42,986 nt of DNA from Methanosaeta sp. PtaB.Bin018. Its GTDB lineage: Archaea > Halobacteriota > Methanosarcinia > Methanotrichales > Methanotrichaceae. Positions 28,075 to 36,500 of this stretch are shown here, in pieces. Where the stretch lies: assembly GCA_002067755.1 (NCBI GenBank), contig MVQH01000060.1, positions 1-42,986 of the forward strand. The letters run 5' to 3'. The notes under the pieces were generated by a model. The model saw nothing but the letters and a program-made list of their open reading frames with translations. It made no database searches and had not been told where the DNA came from. A program made the position numbers and the translations under genes. Each line of letters begins with the position of its first letter. The stretch's first letter is position 1.

Positions 28075-28729
28075 GTCTACCCTTCACTTTGATGGTTTCG
28101 AATTACTGCTACTTATAATAAGTACCTACTTAGAATAATTACTTAATCTTATTTTCATAGCACTTAATCCTTACTAAACCTCAAATTTCGAAACAAAATC
28201 CAAAACTACATTTGAAATTATATTCGAAAAATGAAAGGTTATTTTAGCTAAAAGATGCAATTGGCATGTGGTGCGATGGAGTTCTTGGGAGATCGTACCG
28301 GGAAGAGTAAGTCGAAGATCTGAAGTCGGTGGTGTCAGACACACAGGGATCTGGGCGGGCAGCATGGGCGGCCTCCTCTATCTGCCCGCTTTGTCCTTTG
28401 GTACAGTTGAAAGGGGAAGTCAAGCACAAGATGAACAATAAACCCAGTAAAATTGCCAATAAAAATTTGTAATAAGTTCCGAGACGTTAAATCTAAAAAT
28501 AGTAATAAATTAAAGATAGTAATAAATTAAAATAATTAAAGTTAAAAATAATCGTATTTAACATAATCATATTCAATCAGGCAGGAGGGACCTTGCATTG
28601 ACGCTATATAGCGAAGGTTGTCGATCTTTGCAAGGAGTTCAATGAAAAGCAAATGCACGATTCCAGGCGCTCTCTGGAGAATCATATTCCTCGAGATCTC
28701 AGGAAACAGGTTTCAGGAGGTGAAATGTG
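28075..28729. promoter_or_regulatory. Divergent control region between the regulator operon and gvpA
   Basis: 655 bases with no firm gene. 28080-28260 holds the probable leftward promoter (AT-rich, TTACTTATAATAAG near 28110). 28480-28570 is very AT-rich with imperfect repeats of AGTAATAAATTAAA (28500-28535), good for protein binding or melting. 28591-28634 is the hairpin leader and 28642 a possible leader peptide, both listed separately. GGAGGTGA at 28717-28724 is the gvpA1 ribosome site. Confidence 0.55.
28591..28634 (+). promoter_or_regulatory. Hairpin with palindromic TATATA core in the gvp leader
   Basis: CCTTGCA (28591-28597) pairs with TGCAAGG (28628-28634). Inside lies the perfect 12-bp palindrome CGCTATATAGCG (28602-28613). 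As RNA the outer stem would cover the AAGGAG at 28631-28636 that serves the following small ORF; as DNA the palindrome could be a TATA box with overlapping operator. Confidence 0.45.
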
Positions 28730-28776
28730 ATGGTAACAGCAACACCGGACGCATCAAGCCTTGCCGAGGTCCTTGA
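28642..28776 (+). CDS. Possible 44-aa leader peptide overlapping gvpA1
   Basis: An ATG with a good AAGGAG six bases upstream opens [20 protein letters not shown] and runs 44 residues, out of frame with gvpA, ending 46 bases inside it. Translation would load ribosomes across the gvpA1 start and could control it. No homology is recognised. It may be chance; it is listed because the ribosome site falls in the hairpin above. Confidence 0.3.
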
Positions 28777-28960
28777 TCGGATTCTCGACAAGGGAATTGT
28801 GGTCGATGTCTGGGCGAGGGTCAGCCTCGTTGGCATCGAGATCCTGACGGTCGAGTCAAGGGTCGTCGTGGCATCGGTCGACACCTTCCTCCACTACTCT
28901 GAGGAGATGGCCAAGATCGAGCAGGCTGCCATTGGCGCAACCCCGAAGGTTCCAGCGTAG
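28730..28960 (+). CDS. gvpA: Gas vesicle major structural protein GvpA, copy 1
   Basis: 76 residues. The core [20 protein letters not shown] followed by [20 protein letters not shown] and DTFLHYSEE is diagnostic GvpA, the small hydrophobic subunit that polymerises into the ribs of the gas vesicle wall. The ATG follows GGAGGTGA; a GTG directly before it is rejected for spacing. Protein identical to copy 2. High expression is expected for the main shell protein, consistent with three copies and strong ribosome sites. Confidence 0.97.
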
Positions 28961-28986
28961 GATGATAGACAAAGGAGGGAAAGAGA

Positions 28987-29217
28987 ATGGTAACAGCAAC
29001 ACCGGACGCATCAAGCCTTGCCGAGGTCCTTGATCGGATTCTCGACAAGGGAATCGTGGTCGATGTCTGGGCGAGGGTCAGCCTCGTTGGCATCGAGATC
29101 CTGACGGTCGAGTCAAGGGTCGTCGTGGCATCGGTCGACACCTTCCTCCACTACTCTGAGGAGATGGCCAAGATCGAGCAGGCTGCCATTGGCGCAACCC
29201 CGAAGGTTCCAGCGTAG
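28987..29217 (+). CDS. gvpA: Gas vesicle major structural protein GvpA, copy 2
   Basis: Same 76-residue protein as copy 1; DNA differs at about one synonymous site (GGGAATT versus GGGAATC). Own ribosome site AAGGAGGG, in the 26-base spacer. Second unit of a 257-bp tandem repeat. Confidence 0.97.
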
Positions 29218-29243
29218 GATGATAGACAAAGGAGGGAAAGAGA

Positions 29244-29474
29244 ATGGTAACAGCAACACCGGACGCATCAAGCCTTGCCGAGGTCCTTGATCGGATTCTC
29301 GACAAGGGAATCGTGGTCGATGTCTGGGCGAGGGTCAGCCTCGTTGGCATCGAGATCCTGACGGTCGAGTCGAGAGTCGTCGTGGCATCGGTCGACACCT
29401 TCCTCCACTACTCTGAGGAGATGGCCAAGATCGAGCAGGCTGCCATTGGCGCCACTCCAGGAGTTCCTGCCTGA
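29244..29474 (+). CDS. gvpA: Gas vesicle major structural protein GvpA, copy 3
   Basis: 76 residues; differs from copies 1 and 2 only at the C-terminus (ATPGVPA instead of ATPKVPA), with several silent changes in the last 120 bases. Third unit of the repeat. The extra divergence at its 3' end suggests that gene conversion does not reach the border of the array. Confidence 0.97.
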
Positions 29475-30375: not shown

Positions 30376-30403
30376 ATCGCCTAATTTGCAGGAGATGTCA
30401 GGG

Positions 30404-31486
30404 ATGAAGTACATTGTTTCGCACCCGAGGAGGGTGAGGGGCGAATCTGTTCACCAAACGGCCTCTGAGAAGCGAGAGTCTGAGAAGGATCGAAGGGCTG
30501 CAGCTGATTTTTCACAGCCCGATGTTCAGGTTACTATCAGACCCCATGTATCTGCTGCAGAGGGCTGCGGTGAGTTGCTCACTGAGGAGGCTAAGCGAAA
30601 GGCCATAGAGGAGGCTTATCTCAAGCCCGAGGCCAACCACTTCATCAGCACACCCGAGGTGAAAGAGGTCGAGAACAGGATGATGCTCTGGCTTCAGGCA
30701 GGCTACCCTGTACATCTCATCGGGCCGACCGGCTGCGGTAAGACAAGCCTCGCCATCCATGTGGCCAGCGAGCTTGGGCGGCCGATCGTCTGGATAAACG
30801 GAGACGAGTCGATAACCACGACCGACCTGATCGGCGGCTACTCTCAGATCCAGAACGAGAGCGTGCGAGACAAATACATCCACAACGTCTTCAAGAGCAA
30901 GGACGTGATGAAGATCGAGTGGGTGGACAACCCTCTCTCCTTAGCCTGCAAGTACGGCTACACACTGATCTACAACGAGTTCTCCAGAACCAAACCCGCC
31001 TCAAACAACATCTTGCTCTCCGTCTTTGAGGAGAGAATACTCGAGCTTCCCACGAAGTTCGGGGAGGAGAGGTACATCAAGGTCCATCCCGAGTTCAAGG
31101 CAATTCTCACCAGCAATTCCATAGAGTACGCAGGGATTCACAGGCCCCAGGATGCGCTTCTCGACAGGATGGTGGGGATCTACACAGATTACTACAGCTA
31201 CGAGACAGAGGTCCAGATAGTGATGGAACACACGGGCATCACGAAGGCCAAGGCTGAGAGGATAGCGAGCGTTGTGCGCTCGATTAGGGAGAAGCTGCCC
31301 GATGCCCAGAAGCCTGGTACCAGGGCCTGCATCATGATCGCAAAGGGGTTGAAGACCCTGAACGGTCACGGGAAGATAGATTTCGAGCAGCTCTGCATCG
31401 ATGTTATAGCCAACAAGACCAGCTCGCCAAAGGACATGGCGGAAAAGAAGCGGCTGGTCTTGGATTCGATAGCCCAACTGGGATGA
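30404..31486 (+). CDS. gvpN: Gas vesicle AAA+ protein GvpN
   Basis: About 360 residues. Walker A GPTGCGKTSLAIH, the GvpN-typical NGDESITTTDLIGGY, Walker B YTLIYNEFSR and sensor AILTSNSIEYAG are clear. GvpN is a MoxR-type ATPase needed to enlarge vesicles. An N-terminal extension of some 65 charged residues before the AAA+ core is longer than in many homologues. ATG at 30404 follows GGAG; TTG and ATG codons just upstream are possible alternatives. Confidence 0.95.
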   Translation: MKYIVSHPRRVRGESVHQTASEKRESEKDRRAAADFSQPDVQVTIRPHVSAAEGCGELLTEEAKRKAIEEAYLKPEANHFISTPEVKEVENRMMLWLQAGYPVHLIGPTGCGKTSLAIHVASELGRPIVWINGDESITTTDLIGGYSQIQNESVRDKYIHNVFKSKDVMKIEWVDNPLSLACKYGYTLIYNEFSRTKPASNNILLSVFEERILELPTKFGEERYIKVHPEFKAILTSNSIEYAGIHRPQDALLDRMVGIYTDYYSYETEVQIVMEHTGITKAKAERIASVVRSIREKLPDAQKPGTRACIMIAKGLKTLNGHGKIDFEQLCIDVIANKTSSPKDMAEKKRLVLDSIAQLG

Positions 31487-31496
31487 TGATGCAGTC

Positions 31497-31865
31497 ATGG
31501 ATCGAATTGAAGCAGTGATAGAGGCTGCAGAAGTCCGGAAGGTAGGTGATATCTTTCGCAAAAAGCCTGGCGGACTGAGGTTCAATGAGACTGATGCTTT
31601 GATAGTGAAGGCCAGGACGAGGGATGGAAGGCAAGTGGGAGCCACCTTCTACTTCTGCCTCAAGCCTGATGGGACCTTTGAAGATCATGCCCTTGGCGCT
31701 GATGCCGCAAAGGCCAGGAGACGGAGATTGGCCGCATTTCTCAAATACTACAGGATAGCGGAAGACGTCAGTGATTACAAGTTGAAAGAGAGAGTGGATG
31801 AGTGGAAGGGCCGGATCGTTGAGGCTGTTCTCTCAGACGGTGAGCTTGCCATATACTACCATTGA
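31497..31865 (+). CDS. Unknown gas-vesicle-cluster protein
   Basis: 122 residues, not recognised. Predicted alpha/beta: beta-rich residues 25-60 (DALIVKARTRDGRQVGATFY) then a basic helix KARRRRLAAFLKYYRI and a C-terminal strand pair (EWKGRIVEAVLSDGELAIYY). Located between gvpN (10 bases) and gvpO (31 bases), so co-transcribed. Basic helix and small size would suit an adaptor or a nucleic-acid binder; neither is shown. Confidence 0.7.
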   Translation: MDRIEAVIEAAEVRKVGDIFRKKPGGLRFNETDALIVKARTRDGRQVGATFYFCLKPDGTFEDHALGADAAKARRRRLAAFLKYYRIAEDVSDYKLKERVDEWKGRIVEAVLSDGELAIYYH

Positions 31866-31896: not shown

Positions 31897-32184
31897 ATGG
31901 CTGATACGACAGATAAACCCGGAATTCAGAGGATCTACGAGAAGGCTAGCATGACCGCTGAGGCCCTGCTGAAGAAGAAGCTCGATGCCATAGTATCTCT
32001 CAACAGGGAACCAGATGGGTGGCTCGCTGAGGTGGAGCTGGTGGAGCGAAAGTCCATTCCCGATACGCAGGACATTCTAGGAAGGTACGAGATGATGTTC
32101 GATCTCGATGGCGAGCTTCTGAGCTACAAGAGGATCATGCTGCGCCGCAGGTCGGACATGGAGACTGTAGCCGAAGAGGTGTAG
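31897..32184 (+). CDS. gvpO: Gas vesicle protein GvpO
   Basis: 95 residues. The GvpO core is plain: DGWLAEVELVERKSIPDTQD then LGRYEMMFDLDGELLSYKRI. GvpO is a soluble accessory protein found in archaeal and actinobacterial clusters and needed for vesicle formation in haloarchaea. AGGTGA precedes the start. It ends four bases before gvpF. Confidence 0.9.
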   Translation: MADTTDKPGIQRIYEKASMTAEALLKKKLDAIVSLNREPDGWLAEVELVERKSIPDTQDILGRYEMMFDLDGELLSYKRIMLRRRSDMETVAEEV

Positions 32185-32188
32185 CCTC

Positions 32189-32875
32189 TTGATAAGGCGG
32201 ATCGTGCAGAGAGATAGGCGGCCCCAGGAGGGCAAGGGGAAGTACGTCTACTGTGTCATCCGCCGCCCTTCGGAGCAGGAGAGCTTCGGAGATCTGGGGT
32301 TTGAGGGGGAGAAGGTTTACACATTGGACTACAGAGACCTGTCTCCAGTCGTCAGCGATGCAGTCGTTAGGGAGTACTCAGTCGGAGAGGATGAGGTCGA
32401 GGTCCACAGAAAGGTAGTAGAGAGGGTCATGCAGGAGCACAGCGTCCTGCCCGTGGCCTATGGCATGGTCTTCAAGAGCCGCAAGCTCCTCCAGATCGCC
32501 ATGGGGGCAGGCTACCAGGCGATGCAAGAAGCCTTTGGCGTCGTAGATGGTCGAGTCGAGCTGGGTATCAAGGTCTTTCTGCCGAGAGAGATCGAGGCAT
32601 GGGATGAGAAGAGAAGGGCAGAGTGCAGGTCGGACTTCATCGAGGGCCTCGATGCCTCAGCGTCAGACAGAAAAGACCTCAAGCTCTTCAGCGATCGCCT
32701 TGTGTTCAACGCGGCCTTTCTTGTAGAGAGGGCGAGGATCGAGGAATTCTCAGGTAAAGTGAGCGGCCTTGCATCCAAGTACGAAGATGCAAAGGTGCAG
32801 TACTCGGGGCCGTGGCCTGCCTACAACTTTGTGGACATCCACATCCTGGGAAAGAAGCGCAAGGGGTTCAGATAG
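32189..32875 (+). CDS. gvpF: Gas vesicle protein GvpF/GvpL family (first copy)
   Basis: 228 residues. Family marks: KYVYCVIRRP near the start, VHRKVVERVMQEHSVLPVAYG with MVF, and the C-terminal GPWPAYNFVDI. These proteins bind GvpA and are thought to help nucleate the vesicle. Start is TTG with GAAGAGGTG eight bases upstream. It overlaps nothing but touches gvpG (stop and start adjoin), as in haloarchaeal gvpFG. Confidence 0.93.
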   Translation: MIRRIVQRDRRPQEGKGKYVYCVIRRPSEQESFGDLGFEGEKVYTLDYRDLSPVVSDAVVREYSVGEDEVEVHRKVVERVMQEHSVLPVAYGMVFKSRKLLQIAMGAGYQAMQEAFGVVDGRVELGIKVFLPREIEAWDEKRRAECRSDFIEGLDASASDRKDLKLFSDRLVFNAAFLVERARIEEFSGKVSGLASKYEDAKVQYSGPWPAYNFVDIHILGKKRKGFR

Positions 32876-33163
32876 ATGTTCTTCCTGGACGATCTTCTCA
32901 TCAGATCTTTGGGCATCTCCCTGCCTGGCCTTGATCTGATCTGGACGCTGGAGCAGATTCAGAGATTCGCCCACAAGGAGCTTTACAATCCCGAGAATAT
33001 CAAGAACCAGATAAAAGAGACGCGTCTGCTCTATGAGTTCGGGGAGCTGACAAGGGAAGAGTACGAGCGTAGAAGCTCAAAGCTGATGCACAAGCTGAGG
33101 ATGGCCGAAAAGGCAGGGGAGATGAACCTCGGGACCAGGATGGACATTCTCGGAGGGAGATGA
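32876..33163 (+). CDS. gvpG: Gas vesicle protein GvpG
   Basis: 95 residues. The N-terminus FFLDDLL and PGLDLIWTLEQIQRFAHKEL, plus ETRLLYEFGELTREEYERR, match the GvpG family, a small helical accessory protein. Immediately after gvpF, and its stop overlaps the next start (ATGA). Confidence 0.9.
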   Translation: MFFLDDLLIRSLGISLPGLDLIWTLEQIQRFAHKELYNPENIKNQIKETRLLYEFGELTREEYERRSSKLMHKLRMAEKAGEMNLGTRMDILGGR

Positions 33164-33429
33164 GAGAGAAGGGGATTGCCCTCAAGGGGGACGGGCTTGT
33201 CCAGTGGATGGGGAGGGCTCTGCAGATCTTGCAGGAGATGGATGAGACGAATGAGGAAGAACGAGAGCTCTCCGGAACCCTGGAGGGTCCTCTCTTCTCC
33301 AGAGCAGTTTACGATCTTGTGATCAAGATAGGATTGAGGAACGGATTCAAGCGAGAGGCACGAAGAAGAAGGATTGCCGTCTCGGGGGTTAAGAATGGCT
33401 CGACTGGTGCAGAAGCTCATCGAGAATAG
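33160..33429 (+). CDS. Unknown small gas-vesicle-cluster protein
   Basis: 89 residues, not recognised. N-terminal helix GLVQWMGRALQILQEMDETN, then EGPLFSRAVYDLVIKIGLRN and a basic, probably unstructured end KREARRRRIAVSG. ATGA overlap with gvpG indicates coupled translation. Its 3' end overlaps the next gene by 35 bases. The mid-part is faintly like the helical segment SxxxDLxLRxGL of bacterial GvpJ/S-type and phage adaptor proteins, too weak to name. Confidence 0.65.
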   Translation: MREKGIALKGDGLVQWMGRALQILQEMDETNEEERELSGTLEGPLFSRAVYDLVIKIGLRNGFKREARRRRIAVSGVKNGSTGAEAHRE

Positions 33430-33691
33430 GAGGAGGCAGCATGCCGTTGTGACAGCTCACAAGAGAAAGATCAGGGATGAAGTCAACCCTCAGCTGAGGG
33501 CGGCCAAAAGGGCATGGAGCGATTCATCAAAGGAGAAGAACCTCAACATGAAGTGCAACTGGCACTCTCAGAGGACGCGGGTGCAGAGGCTCCAGAGAGA
33601 GCAGAAGCGCCTTCACATGATGAAGATTCTGGCTCACAAGAGAAGGCTGAAGGCCAAGATAGCAGGCCGAGATAGCGGCAGGCGGGATTGA
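33395..33691 (+). CDS. Very basic small protein, GvpI-like candidate
   Basis: About 98 residues with Arg/Lys close to a third of the sequence: NRRRQHAVVTAHKRKIRDE, KLHMM-like segments, LQREQKRLHMMKILAHKRRL. Predicted one long helix. Haloarchaeal GvpI is likewise small and strongly basic, and sits in the same kind of cluster, but alignment is not evident. The ATG at 33395 gives a start inside the previous gene; an upstream ATG at 33374 is possible. It ends four bases before the GvpJ-type gene. Confidence 0.6.
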   Translation: MARLVQKLIENRRRQHAVVTAHKRKIRDEVNPQLRAAKRAWSDSSKEKNLNMKCNWHSQRTRVQRLQREQKRLHMMKILAHKRRLKAKIAGRDSGRRD

Positions 33692-33695
33692 GAGA

Positions 33696-34064
33696 ATGAC
33701 GGAGTTTGGGCCGAGAAGAACCAGCAACCTTGCTGATGTGATTGAGAGGATCCTGGACAAGGGGCTCGTCATCAACGCGGACATAGCAGTCTCAGTGGCG
33801 GGAACTGAGCTTCTCGGAATAAAGATCAGGGCGACGTTGGCATCCTTCGAGACTGCGGCGAGATATGGCCTTGAGCTTCCCTCAGGCACGAACATGAATG
33901 CACCGGGCTGGAAGGATCTGGAAAGGCCCAAGGCGTACTGCCCTGAGTGTGGAAACAGAAGAGACGAGGAGCTTTTGATCAAGGATGGCTGTCCCGTCTG
34001 TGGCTGGCAGAGCATGGAGCGCAGGCTGCCGATGATAGAGCCTAACTCCCACGGCTATGAATGA
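33696..34064 (+). CDS. gvpJ: GvpJ-type protein with C-terminal zinc ribbon
   Basis: 122 residues. Residues 8-65 are a GvpA-fold segment of the GvpJ/GvpM kind: SNLADVIERILDKGLVINAD then IAVSVAGTELLGIKIRATLA. After a short linker comes YCPECGNRR...DGCPVCGW, a CxxC-CxxC zinc ribbon (residues about 88-110). GvpJ forms a minor shell or tip component; the ribbon is not part of the normal protein and may dock a cytosolic partner or nucleic acid. Confidence 0.85.
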   Translation: MTEFGPRRTSNLADVIERILDKGLVINADIAVSVAGTELLGIKIRATLASFETAARYGLELPSGTNMNAPGWKDLERPKAYCPECGNRRDEELLIKDGCPVCGWQSMERRLPMIEPNSHGYE

Positions 34065-34123
34065 TCCCATGGGGCGAATCTCATGAAATAAGTCTCGTGA
34101 GTCAAGATCTTTTGGAGGAGACG

Positions 34124-34780
34124 ATGGCGAAGGAACCAGAGGAGAAAGACGAGGGCAAGAATGCAGGGGAAGATGGCATGGCGCCTGAGAAAGGGGACAA
34201 GGGGGAAGAGAGCGACAAGGAGGAGAGCAAGAGATTAGAAGAGAGGATAGCCCTCCTGGAGAAGAAGATCGATGAGCTGGAAAAGGAATCCAGGAGGCCA
34301 GCCGAGGGCGTCTCGGGGGAGAGAATCGTGGAGAGCGTGGTAGGGCAGTTCATTCCAGGTCTCGGAGGCATCATAAAGGCCCTCGAAGGATCTTCCCCCG
34401 AGTTCAGACAGAGGATAGCCGAGACCGACGCTGAGATACGCCACAGGATTGATGTTGGGTGGTCCAGCAAGCCTGTGATAGACTACCAAGTCTCCACCAG
34501 GCCTATCAGGCGCGGCCAGCCCCGCACTGAGAGCGTCCGGCTGCCACGGACTGGGCCTACGCGAGATCCGATTGTGGATGTGCTGGAGGGAAAGGATGGG
34601 ATAACGGTCATCGCAGAGCTTCCAGGCGTCTCTGAGGAGGAGCTGAGGCTCTTCCTAGATCGAGATGCTCTGGAGATCTCAGCAGGCCAGTTCAGCAAGA
34701 AGGTAACACTGCCCCGTACAGCAAAATCCATCGTCGAGCGTAGCTTCAAGAACGGCATACTCCAGATCAGACTGAAGTAG
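34124..34780 (+). CDS. gvpH: Gas vesicle protein GvpH (Hsp20-like domain)
   Basis: About 218 residues. N-terminal 45 are acidic and probably disordered; a coiled coil follows (RLEERIALLEKKIDELEKES); the middle (FIPGLGGIIKALEGSSPEFR) and the C-terminal alpha-crystallin-like domain (VIAELPGVSEEELRLF, ERSFKNGILQIRLK) match GvpH, an Hsp20-related chaperone of the gas vesicle. TTTTGGAGGAGACG precedes the ATG at 34124, which is why the longer reading from 34061 is rejected. Confidence 0.85.
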   Translation: MAKEPEEKDEGKNAGEDGMAPEKGDKGEESDKEESKRLEERIALLEKKIDELEKESRRPAEGVSGERIVESVVGQFIPGLGGIIKALEGSSPEFRQRIAETDAEIRHRIDVGWSSKPVIDYQVSTRPIRRGQPRTESVRLPRTGPTRDPIVDVLEGKDGITVIAELPGVSEEELRLFLDRDALEISAGQFSKKVTLPRTAKSIVERSFKNGILQIRLK

Positions 34781-34803: not shown

Positions 34804-35118
34804 ATGACCATCAACCTGGATGAAGAGAACCTGAAGGATGGGCTGCTGGGCCTCGTCGTCGCCCTGGTGGAGATCGTGCAGGAGCTTTTGGAGCGCCAGG
34901 CCCTGAGGAGGATGGAGAGCGGAAGCCTCAGCGATGCAGAGGTGGAGCGCCTGGGCGAGTCACTCTCTGAGCTGCAGGAAGCCCTTGAGAAAATCAAGAT
35001 CGACAACGGCATCGAGGACTCCGTGGAGAACCTCAGGGACAGTCTCGACCAGGTTGCTGAGGATCTGGTGGACAAGTTTCTGGACCCAGAGGAATGGGTA
35101 AAGGAGGCTGGACCATGA
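34804..35118 (+). CDS. gvpK: Gas vesicle protein GvpK
   Basis: 104 residues. GvpK marks: LKDGLLGLVVALVEIVQELL, ALRRMESGSLSDAEVERLG and the long helical C-terminus ending LDPEEWVKEAG. GvpK is a minor accessory protein. Its stop overlaps the gvpL start (ATGA). Confidence 0.93.
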   Translation: MTINLDEENLKDGLLGLVVALVEIVQELLERQALRRMESGSLSDAEVERLGESLSELQEALEKIKIDNGIEDSVENLRDSLDQVAEDLVDKFLDPEEWVKEAGP

Positions 35119-35912
35119 CCGAAGGCCCCAGGGTCGCAAAGGCCAGGTACCTATACGCCATCGCCTCCACGAGAGAGAAGCAGAGCATAGGAAATATCGG
35201 GATCGATGAGAGCGCTGTCTACACCATACCTTTCAAAAGTATTTCTGCAGTGGTACACTCGTGCGAGCCTAGGCCATACGAGACGAGGGACAGAGCATTG
35301 GCAGAGGGCTGGATCCTGGAGCACAGCTACGTGATAGACCAGGCAATGAAGCTCTTCGGGACAGTCCTTCCCTTCTCCTTTGACGTAATAGTGAGGGGAG
35401 ACGATTCTACGATCGAGGGTTGGCTATGCAGGAACTATGACCGCCTCGCAAGCGAGCTGCAGCGAGTCGAGGGCAGGGCAGAGTACTCAGTTGAGATCTA
35501 CTACGACTACGATCAGCTCGCTGAGGAGGCATTGCGGGAAAACCAGGAGCTGAGAGAGCTTGCAAGCAGGATCGAGAAAGAGCCGAAGGGCAGGGCTTAC
35601 ATGCTGAAGAGGACTCTGGATCAGAAGCTGAAGGAGATCGTCGCTTCCGAGGCGCGCAGGCAGGTTGATCGGGCCATCTCACAGATCAAGTCGCTAGCAG
35701 ACGAGGCGAAGGTCGAGACCAAACGATCGCAGCCCCCTGAGAAATACAGAGACAAGAGGCTTATTGGATCGTATTCCTGTCTTGTCCACACTGATAGTGT
35801 GAACAAGCTAGGCGATGTTCTGGAGGAGATTAATGCATTGAGCGGCTTCGCTGTCAGGTTCACCGGCCCGTGGGCTCCCTTCAGCTTCGTGAAGCTCGGT
35901 GATGCGGCATGA
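35115..35912 (+). CDS. gvpL: Gas vesicle protein GvpL/GvpF family (second copy)
   Basis: 265 residues from the ATG in the gvpK stop. N-terminus RYLYAIASTREKQSIGNIG, middle ILEHSYVIDQAMKLFGTVLP and C-terminus GFAVRFTGPWAPFSFVKLGD match the GvpF/L family. It has a central extra helical segment compared with gvpF (KRTLDQKLKEIVASEARRQV). It likely scaffolds other gas vesicle proteins. Confidence 0.93.
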   Translation: MTEGPRVAKARYLYAIASTREKQSIGNIGIDESAVYTIPFKSISAVVHSCEPRPYETRDRALAEGWILEHSYVIDQAMKLFGTVLPFSFDVIVRGDDSTIEGWLCRNYDRLASELQRVEGRAEYSVEIYYDYDQLAEEALRENQELRELASRIEKEPKGRAYMLKRTLDQKLKEIVASEARRQVDRAISQIKSLADEAKVETKRSQPPEKYRDKRLIGSYSCLVHTDSVNKLGDVLEEINALSGFAVRFTGPWAPFSFVKLGDAA

Positions 35913-35942
35913 AGATGGAGACTAAATGAATCGGGTGACTGT

Positions 35943-36500
35943 GTGAAGCCTGAGAGGGAGAGCTGTCTTGTCGAGGTCCTGGACAGGCTTCTCGAAAAGG
36001 GCGCAGTCCTCAGCGCCGACCTGATCATATCAGTGGCAGGCATTCCCCTGATCGGCCTGAACCTGAGGGCGGCGCTGGCAAGCATGGAAACGATGCTGAA
36101 ATACGGAATTATGGAGGACTGGGACAGGAGCAGCAGGGAGAGCGCCCAGAGGGAGGAGCTTCCCCTTGCAGAGGATGAGGAGGTCCTCTTCAGGGCCTTC
36201 GGATACCTGCAGAGCCAAGGGGCTTTGAGCTCCTGGCTTCCCGGAGTCTGGCACCTAACAAGCAAGAGACTCATCCTGTGGAGGAGGTCGCCGTGTGAGG
36301 TAGTCTTCGAGGTGCCCCTACGAGAGATCTGCCTCCTGGAGGCGGATGAGTCTGAAGGGTGCTCAGAGCTGGACCTGATTTACTCCGGCGGCTCGGCCCG
36401 GATCCGCCTCACCGAGACGGAGGAGCTGAGGGTGGCTCTTGATCGCGTCTTGAGGCTCAGAGCAGAGAATTATAATGATCTTATGACCACTGATGCTTAA
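35943..36500 (+). CDS. GvpJ/GvpM-type protein fused to a PH/GRAM-like domain
   Basis: 185 residues; GTG start. Residues 8-60 are a GvpA-fold segment of the GvpJ/M kind: CLVEVLDRLLEKGAVLSADL then IISVAGIPLIGLNLRAALA. A charged linker (70-85) is followed by about 85 residues resembling a bacterial PH/GRAM domain: EEVLFRAFGYLQ, GVWHLTSKRLILWRR, FEVPLREICLLEA, RLTETEELRVAL. Such domains bind lipids or proteins. It is the last gene of the cluster, converging with the next minus-strand gene. Confidence 0.75.
   Translation: MKPERESCLVEVLDRLLEKGAVLSADLIISVAGIPLIGLNLRAALASMETMLKYGIMEDWDRSSRESAQREELPLAEDEEVLFRAFGYLQSQGALSSWLPGVWHLTSKRLILWRRSPCEVVFEVPLREICLLEADESEGCSELDLIYSGGSARIRLTETEELRVALDRVLRLRAENYNDLMTTDA

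Follow-up and report, generated by a model that had tools for sequence, protein, structure and literature searches.

In Halobacterium salinarum, the only organism reported on in both respects, GvpM (84 aa) is required for vesicle formation and binds GvpL (PMC8716928). GvpL of this species binds all accessory Gvps; GvpM binds it via its N-terminal 25 residues, and the C-terminal 25 residues (60-84) of GvpM contact GvpF, GvpH and GvpL (PMC8716928, PMC7688916). Two bacterial proteins, GvpS of Bacillus megaterium and GvpA2 of Serratia, have been called GvpM-related (PMC9501494, PMC11445434). Like GvpM, they are GvpA-related, essential accessory proteins that interact with GvpL, and GvpS is required for the contact between GvpA2 and GvpL, tolerates fusions and may sit at the tips (PMC11445434). 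No PH domain was described for either protein in PMC9501494 or PMC11445434, and both are likened to GvpM here from these published descriptions. The gvpM gene of Methanothrix thermoacetophila (Mthe_0071) shows transcription, and its regulation goes together with that of its cluster (PMC10470525). No paper joining gas vesicles with PH, GRAM or pleckstrin domains was found in the open-access literature, the one co-mention being unrelated; each component is known by itself, and for the long members of the family the pairing of GvpM with PH should show in domain databases.

The window, the whole stretch of 42,986 nucleotides analysed here, is contig G000:C60, one of 104 in a draft genome of 2.2 Mb that belongs to the genus common to genomes deposited as Methanothrix. 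Its plus strand carried three gvpA genes, a gvpC-like coiled-coil gene, gvpN, a 122-aa ORF, gvpO, gvpF and gvpG, followed by two small ORFs, gvpJ, gvpH, gvpK, gvpL and, as the last gene of the cluster, a gvpM extended by a PH-type domain (Table 1), which began 30 bp after the stop codon of gvpL. The gvpA trio was near-identical, with a period of 257 bp. The 122-aa ORF between gvpN and gvpO (31497-31865) had no match in Pfam and NCBIfam scans and is conserved at this position in further Methanothrix clusters. A 105-aa ORF between gvpG and gvpJ (33374-33691) was very basic and resembled the basic GvpI of haloarchaea.

Table 1. Features of the gas-vesicle cluster in the window.
Feature	Position	Strand	Evidence
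gvpA x3, tandem	28727..29474	+	PF00741 1.5e-13 each; NCBIfam GvpA 1.2e-38
gvpN (AAA-type ATPase)	30386..31486	+	named by sequence (P-loop GPTGCGKTS) and place only
gvpO	31897..32184	+	Pfam GvpO 5.5e-21
gvpF	32189-32875	+	Pfam GvpL_GvpF 1.7e-43
gvpG	32876-33163	+	Pfam GvpG 4.1e-14
gvpJ, C-terminal CPEC...CPVC zinc-ribbon-like motif	33696..34064	+	NCBIfam GvpJ 1.3e-30 over 7-68; cysteines from sequence
gvpH, Hsp20-like C-terminus	34061..34780	+	Pfam ArsA_HSP20 1.6e-7, GvpH 0.0015; NCBIfam Hsp20 4e-16
gvpK	34804..35118	+	Pfam GvpK 1.2e-21
gvpL, directly upstream of gvpM	35094..35912	+	Pfam GvpL_GvpF 9.3e-61; NCBIfam GvpL 9.6e-61
Shine-Dalgarno-like GGGTGA	35933..35938	+	4 nt upstream of gvpM GTG; read from sequence
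gvpM-PH CDS, 185 aa, GTG start	35943..36500	+	ORF; NCBIfam GvpM 1.8e-27; tree
GvpA-type shell domain, GvpM kind, residues 1-70	35943..36152	+	Pfam Gas_vesicle 6.9e-15; model helices/strands 9-70, lower confidence
Predicted PH/GRAM-fold domain, residues 81-183	36183..36491	+	AlphaFold2; Foldseek PDB; Pfam in relatives

The 185-aa protein was assigned to GvpM by its gene order, the NCBIfam model and the tree. The Pfam Gas_vesicle profile (PF00741) matched residues 9-46 with 55.3 bits against a cutoff of 25. The NCBIfam GvpM model matched residues 1-65 with 94.8 bits, which lies below the cutoff of 109 of this haloarchaeal model, and the matches to NCBIfam GvpJ (8e-13, 48 bits) and GvpA (2e-9, 37 bits) were weaker. 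A tree built from 82 shell domains placed all GvpM rows, the window and haloarchaeal ones included, in one group (support 98/90) and GvpA in a separate one (100/99), the finer branching being weak with 75 columns. The order J-H-K-L-M, found in the window and in its relatives, is like the J-K-L-M order of Halobacterium and makes the gene gvpM by position as well. A GvpJ identity was rejected, since the window protein fell outside GvpJ in the tree and the cluster has its own gvpJ; of the original "GvpJ/M-type" assignment, the M was thus retained and the J dropped. H. salinarum GvpM shares with the window protein the shell-type domain, the tree group and the place after gvpL. Unlike it, haloarchaeal GvpM has no PH domain and, in the examples read, ended about 15-60 residues past the shell domain.

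The C-terminal half is predicted to be a PH/GRAM domain at the level of fold, on the strength of its relatives and of the structural model. The AlphaFold2 model, computed from 64 aligned sequences (the window and the fetched loci), contained seven strands (81-90, 98-106, 109-114, 119-125, 129-137, 140-147 and 150-156) followed by a C-terminal helix (159-183), and the mean pLDDT per ten residues of this part was mostly 87-96. Confidence was low for the shell domain, and the model therefore gives no prediction of how the two domains are placed relative to each other. Foldseek searches against the PDB returned the PH proteins GRK2, TAPP1, DAPP1, BTK and Vps36 with E values of 1e-5 to 4e-4 (TAPP1, TMt 0.73 and rmsd 2.7; DAPP1, 0.75). 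Among the relatives, the 369-aa homologue L058 was modelled with two PH-type domains, and its structural matches were the tandem-PH proteins BBS5, FARP and Rtt106 as well as the archaeal adaptor CheF. In Pfam, L058 scored 32.1 bits for Vps36_ESCRT-II/GLUE and 29.6 bits for GRAM, above the respective cutoffs of 24.1 and 23.6. At E <= 1, Vps36-GLUE matched 30 of 33 long members and GRAM 25 of 33. The profile matches in relatives also included bPH_3. The window protein thus shares the PH fold with bacterial PH families (PHb PF08000, bPH_3, GRAM and Vps36 GLUE), the last three through its relatives' profile matches. It differs from them in that its own sequence stays below every curated cutoff. 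For its C-terminal half the best Pfam match was DUF7628 (E 0.03-0.06), which was taken as chance, and neither Pfam nor a PDB sequence search revealed the PH domain when the window protein was the sole query. A profile search of its own genome found no second copy of the domain. The original prediction, a fusion of a GvpA-like part (8-60) with a PH/GRAM part (85-180), proved right at the level of fold, its boundaries lying close to those in Table 1; the structure prediction and fold search that it had proposed returned a PH fold and no unrelated one.

Three architectures of PH-bearing GvpM were observed. The long form (~340-390 aa, with many relatives at about 370 aa) consists of GvpM, PH1, PH2 and a C-terminal CPxCG...GCxxCGW zinc-ribbon-like motif; the actinobacterial form (~300 aa) consists of GvpM, PH1 and PH2; and the short form (~180-240 aa), which is that of Methanothrix, Methanoperedens, Methanosarcina and the window, has GvpM and PH1. 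The Streptomyces and Actinomadura proteins of ~300 aa named GvpJ in databases resemble the window protein in having a GvpM-group shell domain followed by PH and in lying in gvp clusters, and differ in having PH2 besides PH1; judged by the tree, their name appears to be a misnomer. One genome (G027) offers a natural comparison, since one of its two gvp loci encodes a 359-aa GvpM-PH-PH-zinc-ribbon protein (L021) and the other an 80-aa GvpM without PH (L030/L101). A zinc-ribbon-like motif was also common on GvpJ in relatives, and the CPEC...CPVC of the window GvpJ resembles the C-terminal motif of long GvpM (L053, L058, L060, L081).

The pairing of GvpM with PH is widespread in archaeal and bacterial gas-vesicle clusters. 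A first panel comprised the window's own genome plus 99 relatives; 23 of these 100 genomes had a match at E <= 0.001, and the extended protein was present in all 23, G027 among them. A single-sequence search of genome contigs gave no match. An alignment-based GTDB genome scan yielded 322 confirmed relatives, and the best 79, which were ranked by similarity to a PH-bearing query and are therefore no census, were analysed. Among these best 79 loci, the extension was present in 78, and other gvp genes, usually gvpL or gvpK, adjoined in 76; in the remaining three, the gene started less than 200 bp from a contig end. The 79 loci carry labels of about 20 phyla. They come from isolates, which include Streptomyces, Actinomadura, Desulfoluna, Methanosarcina and Hakubella, and from many MAGs, for some of which (e.g. 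L048, L062, L091) the label probably reflects misbinning. Matches in a sample of 393 genomes from the window's phylum were of two classes, one (19 genomes) running into the PH part and the other ending by about residue 83. Examples read from the latter class were GvpM of the haloarchaeal type, with an acidic tail, and a pair of short forms. No relative was found in the viral contigs of IMG/VR. The original prediction had described a single fusion; the fusion stood, and the window protein turned out to be a shortened version of a widespread GvpM architecture.

Other PH proteins were observed in the same surroundings. About 27 further ORFs in the fetched loci, not called GvpM, matched the PH profile (E <= 1e-3), several of them with an Hsp20/GvpH-like domain as well. 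PH-domain proteins of bacterial gvp clusters other than GvpM lie at L058:4686-5960, L059:12276-13580, L062:6069-7082, L063:18600-19517 and L098:12848-13756, and several of these end in an Hsp20/GvpH-like domain.

The substitution pattern points to purifying selection on the PH part, looser than that on the shell part. In Methanothrix and near relatives, dN/dS of the PH part (Nei-Gojobori) was about 0.1-0.4 in most unsaturated pairs and reached 0.69 in the most diverged ones, and the PH part evolved faster than the shell part. PH1 has residues that are invariant across relatives.

Loss of the PH domain has occurred. The stub with which L127 (EGEEVVQKEK) and L128 terminate corresponds to the beginning of PH2 in L118, a relative of both, and the PH-less L101 was placed within Methanothrix in the tree; no PH remnant was recognised in the three forward frames after this short gvpM (L101/L030). 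The tree suggests a loss in haloarchaea as well. In the best tree, haloarchaeal GvpM lay inside the PH-bearing clade, joined with the actinobacterial forms (98/85), while an AU test did not reject its placing as outgroup to the PH lineage (p-AU 0.35). No C-terminal PH was hidden in the long haloarchaeal frames, whose extra length is mostly upstream. It is a tentative and rather doubtful idea that the PH-bearing GvpM is ancestral, its two PH domains and zinc ribbon belonging to a scaffold that builds the vesicle nucleus; haloarchaeal GvpM would then be a stripped derivative lacking a main nucleation module.

Starting from the fold, family, gene order and conservation observed, we infer a place on the vesicle, a docking role and partners for the PH domain. 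With a probability of roughly 0.55, it is a docking module that gathers accessory Gvps at the nascent vesicle, with the GvpM shell domain at the wall or tip. Residues 1-70 would join or seed the nascent wall or tip, and the PH-fold domain on the C-terminal side would face the cytosol and hold the accessory assembly complex at the site of the new vesicle, GvpL first and then GvpF, GvpH, GvpK or GvpJ. It may thereby strengthen or replace the contact made by the short C-terminal tail of haloarchaeal GvpM; the PH domain is attached at the same end of GvpM as the C-terminal contact region of H. salinarum. Prokaryotic PH domains are thought to work via protein contacts (PMC2817789). Docking is supported by the presence of the adaptor CheF among the structural matches and by the recurrence of PH ORFs in bacterial gvp clusters, some of them joined to Hsp20/GvpH-like domains. 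Against it counts the finding that the last 25 residues of H. salinarum GvpM are dispensable for vesicles (PMC8716928). The absence of PH from haloarchaea, from L101 of a Methanothrix relative and from L127 and L128 indicates that the domain is not universally essential. From the relatives L082 and L099, which share the gene order G-J-M-K-L, we infer that Mthe_0071 of M. thermoacetophila carries PH.

Many eukaryotic PH and GRAM domains are lipid binders, and several of the structural matches (TAPP1, DAPP1, BTK) are lipid-binding PH domains; the PH domain might accordingly bind membrane lipids as a tether or sensor, siting vesicle formation at the membrane or anchoring vesicles to it. The C-terminal part is indeed basic in some long bacterial forms (pI 9.1 in L060 and 8.6 in L062). 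In the window, however, the PH region is acidic (pI 4.6; 20 D/E against 12 K/R), and basic residues are absent from its beta1-beta2 loop (SQGALSS), as is the basic phosphoinositide motif; the close relatives L036, L040, L042, L046 and L047 are likewise acidic (pI 4.8-5.9). Protein docking was favoured over a membrane tether because the domain is acidic and has no basic lipid site, which makes the membrane tether of the original prediction unlikely and leaves a tether to a protein partner, which it had also named, plausible. A domain without a specific partner, serving as a steric cap or solubility tag that keeps GvpM soluble, out of the ribs and at the tips, would fit the aggregation of haloarchaeal GvpM made alone (PMC9501494), the faster evolution of the PH part and the expected misfit of a bulky domain on each subunit of a packed wall. 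Such a cap is nevertheless improbable, as the PH domain, often in two copies, is kept across many phyla with its invariant PH1 residues, which is more than a generic tag would need.

Self-association of the PH domain could also bring GvpM molecules together in a small, tip-seeding ring, as PHb domains (PF08000) form cyclic rings via sheet extension (PMC2817789) and many GvpM proteins have two PH domains; with a single PH in the window form and a window sequence outside the PF08000 family, this is quite improbable. The idea that PH replaces GvpI was rejected as a clean swap, since GvpI-like ORFs and PH-bearing GvpM coexist in the Methanoperedens loci L049, L050 and L074. That assembly or gene calling had fused two genes could be suspected from the 104-contig draft and from the missing Pfam match to PH in the window protein alone; conservation of the extension in the panel and in the best 79 loci, isolates included, refuted such an artefact, which is also opposed by the purifying selection on the PH part and is left with a negligible probability.

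Gas-vesicle nucleation is an open question, and the essential proteins with an unclear role include GvpM and GvpS. The PH domain conserved on GvpM in many phyla, being defined, deletable and soluble, offers a handle in the search for the nucleation complex, and for engineered vesicles the PH end of GvpM marks a place where fusions occur naturally and are tolerated. These results suggest that the haloarchaeal laboratory model shows a reduced version of GvpM. If the ancestral reading were true, a main vesicle-nucleation module would be absent from the haloarchaeal model on which laboratory knowledge of GvpM is based.
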